In this document: in pieces, positions 19,299 to 25,891 of the stretch | How the letters are laid out: every line of letters begins with the position of its first letter | How positions within the stretch are numbered: position 1 is the stretch's first letter | Assembly (NCBI GenBank): GCA_003023725.1 | Contig: PXYT01000029.1 | Span: 1-43,641, forward strand | DNA: 43,641 bases | DNA from: Sulfobacillus benefaciens | GTDB lineage: Bacteria; Bacillota; Sulfobacillia; Sulfobacillales; Sulfobacillaceae | Reading direction: 5' to 3' | Notes under the pieces: model-generated | Database searches by the model: none | The model's input: the letters and a program-made list of their open reading frames with translations, nothing else | Told to the model about the DNA's origin: nothing | Translations under genes and position numbers: made by a program

Positions 19299-19328
19299 TT
19301 GACACCGAGGGAAATTATTATATATAAT
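19299..19328 (+). promoter_or_regulatory. Near-consensus sigma-A-type promoter of the rhodanese/MBL gene
   Basis: TTGACA at 19299-19304 and TATAAT at 19323-19328 are both perfect consensus hexamers, separated by 18 bases. The start codon at 19461 lies about 125 bases beyond the expected transcription start, leaving a sizeable untranslated leader. This is the clearest promoter in the window. Confidence 0.75.
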
Positions 19329-19460
19329 CTGGTTACGTCATTAATTGACTTCGGTTCATATTGGATAGGACTAAATGGCTATGGATGTGTCTTGACCGCC
19401 ACCCTTCCAGGACATCGAACCACAACCTTAATGCACACCAAGAGCACGAGGAGGATTCCA

Positions 19461-20591
19461 ATGAGTATAAAGTCTGTTACCGCTAAGACGGTTTTTGATG
19501 AACTGGACCAAGGCCAACCGATCGTGATTTTGGATTTACGGGCCCCATCGGAGTTTGAAGATTGGCGCATTGCGGGCCCTCACCCTGCAAAATTTTACAA
19601 TATTTTCTATGCTGATTTCTTTGAGAACGAAGAAGCGGCTGCCGCTCCGTTGCCCAAAGATCAGGAAATTACAATCGTTTGCGCAAAAGGCGGGGCTTCC
19701 GCAACCGTAGCCGAAATTTTGGATCAACTAGGTTATCAAGTCCGCCATATGGAAGGCGGTATGCTTGCATGGAGCCAATTGCACATAGTGCGTCCGGTGC
19801 CGGTGGCATCAGAAGAATTTAAGATCTGGCAAGTTAACCGTGTCGGCAAAGGATGTTTGTCTTATGTAGTTGCCGCGCACGGTGAGGGACTGATCGTGGA
19901 TCCCTCCCGGATGACACATGTATACCAGGATTTGGCTCAACAAGAAGGATTCCGAATTCGCTACGTGGTGGACACTCACATTCATGCCGACCACATTTCG
20001 GGCGGCAGAGAGCTGGCTCATGCCGCAGGCGCAACCTACCGTCTGACAGAGACCCATGCAGGCGCGCCTCTTCGCTACGAACCTTTGAATGACAAAGAAG
20101 TCCTTTCGTTAGGAGATGTCCGGGTTGAAACCTTAACCATTCATACTCCCGGTCATACACCAGAAAGCACGTCTTTTCTCATAAATGATCAGTACCTCAT
20201 TAGCGGGGACACCGTGTTCGTGGAAGGGGTGGGCCGCCCCGACTTGGGCGGAAACACCGCGAAGTGGGCCCAAGATCTCTTTGAAAGTATTCATGTGCGG
20301 TTGGCTGGTCTCCGTAACGACACCTGGGTGCTCCCGGCCCATTACCAAAGCATGGATGAGATCAAAGAACACCGCCTAGTCTTCACCACGTTCGGTCATT
20401 TGCGCAAAACCGACAAGATTAAGCGGAACTTAAGTGCTCAGCAGTTCATCCGCGACATTGTGAATGACAATAGTCCTCCGCCGCCGAACTATGAGAAGAT
20501 CGTCGATGCCAACATGGGACGAATCGACCTTGATGTCGACACGGCAAACTTTCTCGAAATCGGGCCCAATCGATGCGCGTTGGTTCACTGA
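19461..20591 (+). CDS. Rhodanese / metallo-beta-lactamase fusion (persulfide dioxygenase-like)
   Basis: The 376-residue protein has an N-terminal rhodanese domain (about 1-107), with DLRAPSEFEDWRI and a catalytic Cys74 in VCAKGGASAT. A metallo-beta-lactamase domain follows, with THIHADH (172-178), the PGHTPES histidine (232), the metal-bridging Asp in LISGDT (250) and the last His in LPAHY (294). The MBL part resembles ETHE1-type persulfide dioxygenases and glyoxalase II relatives. The rhodanese would supply or accept sulfane sulfur and the MBL would oxidise a persulfide to sulfite, fitting an organism exposed to reduced sulfur. The ATG follows GAGGAGG. Well-known fusions place the MBL domain first; here the rhodanese is N-terminal. 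Substrate specificity is inferred. Confidence 0.88.
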   Translation: MSIKSVTAKTVFDELDQGQPIVILDLRAPSEFEDWRIAGPHPAKFYNIFYADFFENEEAAAAPLPKDQEITIVCAKGGASATVAEILDQLGYQVRHMEGGMLAWSQLHIVRPVPVASEEFKIWQVNRVGKGCLSYVVAAHGEGLIVDPSRMTHVYQDLAQQEGFRIRYVVDTHIHADHISGGRELAHAAGATYRLTETHAGAPLRYEPLNDKEVLSLGDVRVETLTIHTPGHTPESTSFLINDQYLISGDTVFVEGVGRPDLGGNTAKWAQDLFESIHVRLAGLRNDTWVLPAHYQSMDEIKEHRLVFTTFGHLRKTDKIKRNLSAQQFIRDIVNDNSPPPPNYEKIVDANMGRIDLDVDTANFLEIGPNRCALVH

Positions 20592-20780: not shown

Positions 20781-21935
20781 CTAATCCGCGCCATATTCTG
20801 TAGGAACCAACAAGACCGGAACCAGGGAGTGCGCACTTACGTACCGGGAGGCACTTTCCTGCCAGTAGGCAGGAATATCGTTTCGATGCCTGTTTCCCAT
20901 GACGATCATACTCGCATGCACATGTTGAGAAAATTCAACGAGAGTCGGTCCTGCCTCTCCTTCCAGCACCGTGATTTGATTCTGAAACTTCCCCGCTGTC
21001 AAGAGGTTCTCCGCCATCATGTGTTGATGCTGCCAATATTGCCGGTCCGTTTTCTGAATTTCTTCGGCATGGTATGATTCGGGCAAAACGGTCACTAAAT
21101 GAATGACGGAACCTTCTTGGATGAAGCGGTTAATCCAGGAGGCCCCCCTGAGCGAGGTTAGCGACCCGTCGATTCCCCACACAATCGCATGAGGATTATT
21201 CGAGACCAATAAGTTTCCCTGAGCCGGTGCCTTTACTCCCGTTAAGAGAACTACCAGATCGCCAAGCCATTGGTGAACCGACAGTTTGATGAGGCCCAAG
21301 CGCATGGCCTCGGTCCGCAATTCCTGCATAGAAGGGGCATGCTGCAAAGAGACTGCCAGCCATTGATACGGATTGAGTTTCGGTCCAGATATTCTTGCAG
21401 TAATAGCATTTAATCCCTGGCGGGCCATAATGCCCAATCGCGTCAATGGTTGCACCATTTCGAGAATCGTAAGTTGCCCTCCTACTTTCAACACGCGCAT
21501 CATTTCCTGCAATCCTTTCGTCCAGTCTCCCATGTTGCGTAAAGAGAATTGCGCGCTGACTCGGTCAAACGTCTCGCTGCCAAATGGCAGCTGTTCACCG
21601 GATCCATGCACCCACTGAATCGGTCCAGCATTCGCCGGAATGGGCGCGGTTCTAGCCACATCCAACATGCCGTTTGCGGGATCAAGACCCGTGACGCGAC
21701 CTTGGGGCCCCAATTTTAACGCGATCTGGCGGGTGACCGTTCCGGTTCCGCAGCCCACATCCAACACATGAAGGCTCCCAGACAATTGCATACGTTCTAC
21801 GGCAACATGATGCCAAGCACGAATGCCACCCGCCGAAAGCAAATCACTCCACCGATCATAGTGGGGGGAAATCACGTCGAATAATGCCGGAGTTGCGGAT
21901 TTGGGTGCCTTCTTCTGGTCTTCATTGCTTGACAT
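20781..21935 (-). CDS. UbiE-like SAM methyltransferase fused to a UspA-type domain
   Basis: This 384-residue protein joins two domains. Residues about 15-235 are a class I methyltransferase of the UbiE/MenG type: FDVISPHYDRWSDLLS, motif I VLDVGCGTGTV (57-67), GLDPANGMLDVAR (83-95), and AQFSLRNMGDWTKGLQEMMRVLKVGG. Residues about 248-378 are a universal-stress-protein-like domain beginning AIVWGIDGS and ending SLVPVLLVP. The ATP-binding motif of classical UspA, G-x2-G-x9-G-S/T, is degraded: MGNRHRND lacks the second Gly and the serine loop reads ESAS. The methyl acceptor is unknown; a quinone-like or lipid substrate is only a family guess. The Usp part may sense or regulate. AAAAGGGG precedes the start. 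The gene is convergent with the rhodanese/MBL gene. Confidence 0.88.
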   Translation of the reverse strand: MSSNEDQKKAPKSATPALFDVISPHYDRWSDLLSAGGIRAWHHVAVERMQLSGSLHVLDVGCGTGTVTRQIALKLGPQGRVTGLDPANGMLDVARTAPIPANAGPIQWVHGSGEQLPFGSETFDRVSAQFSLRNMGDWTKGLQEMMRVLKVGGQLTILEMVQPLTRLGIMARQGLNAITARISGPKLNPYQWLAVSLQHAPSMQELRTEAMRLGLIKLSVHQWLGDLVVLLTGVKAPAQGNLLVSNNPHAIVWGIDGSLTSLRGASWINRFIQEGSVIHLVTVLPESYHAEEIQKTDRQYWQHQHMMAENLLTAGKFQNQITVLEGEAGPTLVEFSQHVHASMIVMGNRHRNDIPAYWQESASRYVSAHSLVPVLLVPTEYGAD

Positions 21936-25093: not shown

Positions 25094-25891
25094 CTATTTG
25101 CGGAATTTTGAAAAATCAGGAGGTCTTTTCTCCACAAAGGCATTGCGACCTTCCAAGGCCTCCTCCGTATGGTAAAACATGGCCAGACTTCCCATGGCAA
25201 TTTGCGAAATCCCAGCGATGGTCGCACTGTCCGCATTAAAGGAGTATTTCAGCATTTTGAGGGCAGTCGGACTCTTCTCAAGAATTTTTCGGCACCACCG
25301 GTCCACTTCCTCCTGCAACTGCTCGTGTGGCACCACCTTATTGACGAGACCCATCTCCTTCGCCTCTTCAGCCGTGTATTGGTCGCACAGGTACCAAATT
25401 TCTCTGGCCTTTTTCTCTCCCACAATGCGACTTAAATAAGCCGTACCGAATCCGGCATCGTAACTTCCGACCTTAGGACCACTCTGGCCAAATTTTGCCC
25501 GTTCCGAAGCAATGCTCAAATCGCACAAAACTTGCAAAACATTGCCCCCTCCGATGGCATAGCCATTCACAGCTGCGATCACCGGTTTGGGAATGTCGCG
25601 GATAACCCCGTGCAGAGTCTCCACTTCAAGCCCGATTCCTCCCCCAAGACCGCCGGATTTGTCATATCCCTCGCCACTGCGCTGTTTCTGATCGCCACCC
25701 GCACAAAAAGCCTTGTCGCCGGCACCGGTCAGCACTACAACTCCAATCCGGTTATCGTCCCAGGCATCGCGAAAGGCCCAAGTCATTTCGTCAACCGTGC
25801 GTGCGCGAAACGCATTGTAGACCTCAGGACGGTTGATCGTGATTTTAGCCACACCATGATCTTTTTGGTACACAATGTCACCCAAATCCAT
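25094..25891 (-). CDS. BadI/MenB-subfamily crotonase, probably 2-ketocyclohexanecarboxyl-CoA hydrolase-like
   Basis: The 265-residue protein has the MenB/BadI architecture: [79 protein letters not shown] and the terminal [12 protein letters not shown]. MenB makes 1,4-dihydroxy-2-naphthoyl-CoA; BadI opens 2-ketocyclohexane-1-carboxyl-CoA to pimelyl-CoA. The Asn in GGGNVL (His in MenB), the loop leading into [14 protein letters not shown], and [23 protein letters not shown] favour BadI, while GDQKQR is MenB-like. No men genes lie nearby. The conserved Ser-Tyr-Asp of the MenB/BadI class is present (GSYDAG). A GAGGAGGAG precedes ATG 25891. With the ligase, reductases and crotonases nearby, an alicyclic acyl-CoA role fits, but MenB-like or other dicarboxylate chemistry is not excluded. 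Confidence 0.72.

Follow-up and report, generated by a model that had tools for sequence, protein, structure and literature searches.

A UbiE/MenG-type methyltransferase fused to a Usp domain is conserved in the family of Sulfobacillus benefaciens and probably acts on demethylmenaquinone

Sulfobacillus species are acid-loving bacteria that are used in bioleaching. The window analysed here, a stretch of 43,641 nucleotides from Sulfobacillus benefaciens, contains a single open frame that starts with ATG, has no internal stops and encodes a protein of 384 amino acids, composed of a methyltransferase and a Usp domain (Table 1). The first part is recognised by Pfam Ubie_methyltran (PF01209) at residues 17-235 (E 2.1e-34, 119.3 bits against a gathering score of 20.1), with profile positions 11-233 of 233, that is, the whole domain, and the second by Pfam Usp (PF00582) at residues 251-378 (E 5.6e-13, 50.1 bits against a gathering score of 24). 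The first-pass annotation of this DNA had described a complete SAM-binding domain followed in the same frame by a Usp domain, and both statements hold, because the two Pfam domains lie above their cut-offs within 384 uninterrupted codons and SAM-binding motif I is intact. AlphaFold2, with the alignment of the relatives as input (mean pLDDT of 84.9), predicts two separate folded domains joined by a weak linker of low confidence (residues 240-246); structural comparison was made mainly with residues 12-238, and the Usp fold was assigned from the sequence matches.

Table 1. Position of the fusion gene, its domains and motifs, and its convergent neighbour in the window
Feature	Position	Strand	Basis
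Fusion gene: UbiE/MenG-type methyltransferase, then Usp	20781..21935	-	ORF, Pfam, relatives' alignment
MenG/UbiE methyltransferase domain	21231..21884	-	Pfam, TIGR01934 match
SAM-binding motif I, VLDVGCGTGT, residues 57-66	21738..21767	-	Alignment
Arg133-Asn134 of SLRN motif; Arg133 corresponds to Coq5 Arg201	21534..21539	-	Alignment
Usp domain	20802..21185	-	Pfam
Degraded Usp ATP motif GNRHRNDIPAYWQES, residues 347-361	20853..20897	-	Alignment
Convergent neighbour, rhodanese + metallo-beta-lactamase, persulfide-dioxygenase-like	19299..20591	+	ORF, Pfam

The convergence with a sulfur enzyme that had been noted before is correct, the gap to the rhodanese/metallo-beta-lactamase gene being of 189 bases, but the pairing is found in only one other genome (G014, locus L174) and the link of the fusion to this enzyme is weak. 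Quinone-linked respiratory neighbours in other genera are better conserved: cytochrome b6-type genes in genera g8 and g10 and, at other loci, a Pyr_redox_2 (pyridine-nucleotide-disulphide-oxidoreductase) gene, which may code for a sulfide:quinone reductase. Elsewhere in the window, a minus-strand gene (25094-25891) that adjoins enoyl-CoA hydratase, SDR and CoA-transferase genes encodes a second MenB-like protein, with 363 bits to TIGR01929 (over the cut-off) and 366 bits to BadI (below the BadI cut-off). The true menB lies in the men cluster of this genome, so that for this protein an acyl-CoA hydrolase of the ring-cleaving, BadI-like type is a likelier identity than MenB.

The fusion is real and conserved. 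Within the host family a match at E<=1e-30 is present in 28 of 34 genomes, belonging to 10 of 11 genera, and the two-domain form in 27 of the 34, all of the fused frames being open, in finished genomes too, so that the distribution is that of a family-wide protein and not of a one-off. Relatives in which the two domains are encoded by separate genes were not found in the family, with the exception of G028, where a very divergent methyltransferase stands alone. These open two-domain homologues rule out a missed stop or a chance joining, and the reading in which two genes were joined by an error of sequencing or assembly can be considered already refuted by them. A sample of 398 genomes from the phylum, some 395 of them outside the host family, yielded only the single-domain form beyond the family; the extra-family matches cover the methyltransferase part, at approximately profile columns 6-230, and the longest of them ends at column 254. 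No paper on a methyltransferase-Usp fusion was found among the open-licence literature, and the fusion is apparently new to it. The alignment of the relatives comprises 29 proteins. Close relatives differ with a dN/dS of 0.05-0.16 in each half, some of the pairs being almost saturated at synonymous sites. Where dS is about 0.9-1.2, the values are 0.09-0.12 for the methyltransferase and 0.10-0.15 for the Usp half, and the closest pair (dS 0.15) gives 0.16 and 0.05, respectively. Purifying selection on both halves is similar, and the Usp half is therefore retained, even without its ATP motif.

The window protein scores 144-146 bits against TIGR01934 (MenG/UbiE), below both the subfamily cut-off (158.35) and the equivalog cut-off. 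The cut-off is passed in 7 of the 34 host-family genomes, so the family straddles the line and the window protein was filed as a MenG-like variant and not named an equivalog. In the genomes that contain it, the fusion is the best TIGR01934 match, a second class of UbiE-like proteins scoring far lower. The nearest solved structure is yeast Coq5 (PDB 4obw), with a VIA-align Z of 26.1 over 213 residues (23.1 for the runner-up), an rmsd of 2.3 and 22% identity, and it is also the top Foldseek match (TMt 0.79-0.80). Profile alignment pairs nearly the entire domain with Coq5 and the Rossmann core alone with most other methyltransferases. The SLRN motif, taken from a relative and conserved in the window protein, pairs with FGIRN of Coq5, and the YQWL..S / HAPT..EL tail aligns with Coq5 as well. 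The arginine of this motif corresponds to Coq5 Arg201 (counted along the Coq5 construct of 257 residues, made up of 61-307 and ten more), which has been proposed as the general base of that enzyme (PMC5289526).

The genome of the window (G000) contains a paralogous fusion on contig C79 (L173:8964-10109), 55% identical to the window protein and located beside cydAB (cytochrome bd). In this paralogue a glycine of motif I is gone (GCKTG), as is the Arg-Asn pair (SLHGM); the copy may be dead or have a regulatory function, and is possibly a pseudoenzyme. That probably non-catalytic versions exist gives some basis to the idea that the methyltransferase half binds SAM without catalysis, as a stress or SAM sensor; this is very improbable for the window copy, which, like 27 other aligned proteins, retains the glycines of the SAM motif together with Arg-Asn.

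The Men pathway has been described in every Sulfobacillus genome studied (PMC4378227). In the host family 31 of 34 genomes have a MenB match that exceeds the cut-off, and 0 of 34 have one to MqnC, an enzyme of the futalosine route, which rules out this route to menaquinone, so the classical pathway is in use; MenB and the fusion are both missing from one genome (G006). Contig C66 of the window's own genome carries MenF, D, H, B, E and A in a cluster (menFDHBEA), where MenF was called by its match to the isochorismate synthase subfamily and the other five by equivalog cut-offs. menG is absent from this cluster, and a better MenG match than the fusion was not found elsewhere in the genome. The Coq5-like structure and motifs, the men cluster lacking menG, the best MenG match and the quinone-linked neighbours together point to demethylmenaquinone (DMK) as the substrate of the methyltransferase half, for which the first-pass annotation had named none. 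The fusion is, in our judgement, probably a MenG-type demethylmenaquinone C-methyltransferase that carries a C-terminal Usp domain as a dimerisation or regulatory module. Such an enzyme would catalyse the SAM-dependent C-methylation of DMK, the substrate we infer, to menaquinone (MK, vitamin K2), the last Men step.

The DMK/MK mixtures of Sulfobacillus differ by species, with unmethylated DMK ranging from 0 to 100% (PMC8489842), so the fusion is a natural suspect and may be a cause of these differences. DSMZ measurements gave MK only for S. thermotolerans, 66% DMK-6 for S. acidophilus and, for S. thermosulfidooxidans, 40% DMK-6, 45% MK-6 and 15% MK-7, or 60% menaquinone in total (PMC8489842). 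The fusion is present in G019 (assigned to S. thermotolerans) and intact in G020 (assigned to S. acidophilus). The genome assigned to the S. thermosulfidooxidans type strain (G017) contains MenB, but the fusion has been deleted from the syntenic position (L214, G017:C1:1262000-1274000). What looks like an operon for sugar transport lies there next to the remaining fragment of the downstream gene, and no run of N is present. DMK methylation thus seems to occur without the fusion in at least one strain; either another enzyme can methylate DMK in G017, or there is an error in the species assignment or in the chemotaxonomy. With MK reported for G017 in spite of the missing fusion, and 66% DMK for S. 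acidophilus in spite of an intact one, more than the fusion must determine the quinone ratio. These two cases, and also the score under the MenG cut-offs, favour an alternative in which the substrate of the methyltransferase half is not DMK but some other quinone, the precursor of a quinone or an aromatic compound, and in which a different enzyme, such as one that G017 also has, methylates DMK. We consider this alternative unlikely, given the conservation of Coq5-specific features, the absence of an equal MenG match among the other proteins of these genomes and the quinone-linked neighbours. A diverged stand-alone UbiE-like methyltransferase gene is located near cytochrome b genes in the window's own genome (L228:5413-6129, G000:C1). 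This gene is found in 7 of the 8 genomes of the window's genus, G017 included, and its product, which has neither the Arg-Asn pair nor the N-terminal helix region, is a candidate second DMK methylase by its presence.

Usp proteins are widespread and, to our knowledge, their molecular targets are mostly unclear. The Usp ATP motif had been described as degraded, and this is true of the window copy, in which GNRHRNDIPAYWQES departs from the canonical GxxG-x9-G(S/T); other genera (g8 and g10) keep the full motif. These two genera account for all 8 of the 29 aligned proteins that contain it, the window copy being among the 21 without it. The second glycine is lost across the window's genus, and the G of G(S/T) is also lost in the window subclade (with G014, G015, G018 and the paralogue). 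At least two changes are needed on the tree, whose root is not fixed, and they may be gains or losses of the motif. In the window clade the loss of the motif argues against ATP as ligand, so protein contact would be more likely than ATP binding, and a contact- or dimer-based role of the Usp half is favoured. The contact could involve the dimer, a free Usp partner or a respiratory complex. In one genome the fusion is immediately followed by a free Usp gene of the same orientation (L189:1371-2048, G022:C25), and further free Usp genes are near the fusion in L184, L191 and L192; in some g8/g10 loci these free Usp proteins could be partners of the fusion. The Usp domain in a 381-aa frame of the window's own genome (G000:C1) was also considered and set aside, as by eye it resembles KdpD, an ordinary protein.

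On the proposed MenG-type reading, the Usp half would change the activity, assembly or localisation of the enzyme, and the earlier suggestion of a stress- or ligand-tuned methyltransferase is in this sense plausible. The Usp half could instead be a passive scaffold for folding or dimerisation, without regulation, of a true MenG, as might be expected from the lack of a full ATP motif in most aligned proteins and from the faster divergence of the Usp half, relative to the methyltransferase half, over long distances. We regard this as improbable, because between close relatives the Usp half is constrained about as much as the enzyme half and because the ATP motif is intact in g8 and g10. A more specific and rather doubtful proposal is that the Usp half of this MenG-type enzyme is a post-translational switch setting the DMK:MK ratio of the quinone pool by stress or redox state. 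If true, this switch would account for the unusual DMK range of Sulfobacillus, and a Usp domain would have a direct enzymatic target in the synthesis of quinones. Should the enzyme be MenG, it would also offer an explanation, open to testing, of why mixed DMK/MK pools are reported (PMC8489842). Because this Usp domain and a single defined enzyme form one polypeptide, the effect of the domain should be directly measurable.

Compared with MenG/UbiE enzymes (TIGR01934, PF01209), the window protein shares a full-length match over its first 235 residues, with SAM motif I, SLRN and YQWL..S, in a genome that has a Men pathway and apparently no separate menG; it differs from them in about 145 extra residues that hold the Usp domain and in its score below the TIGR01934 line. 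Coq5 (4obw) is the closest fold, and its proposed base Arg201 is kept as Arg133, although Coq5 is a single-domain, mitochondrial protein that acts on a benzoquinone. As a member of the Usp family (PF00582), the C-terminal half is above the cut-off and keeps the IDGS motif, but it is fused to a methyltransferase and, in the window clade, has lost the second and third glycines of the ATP motif.
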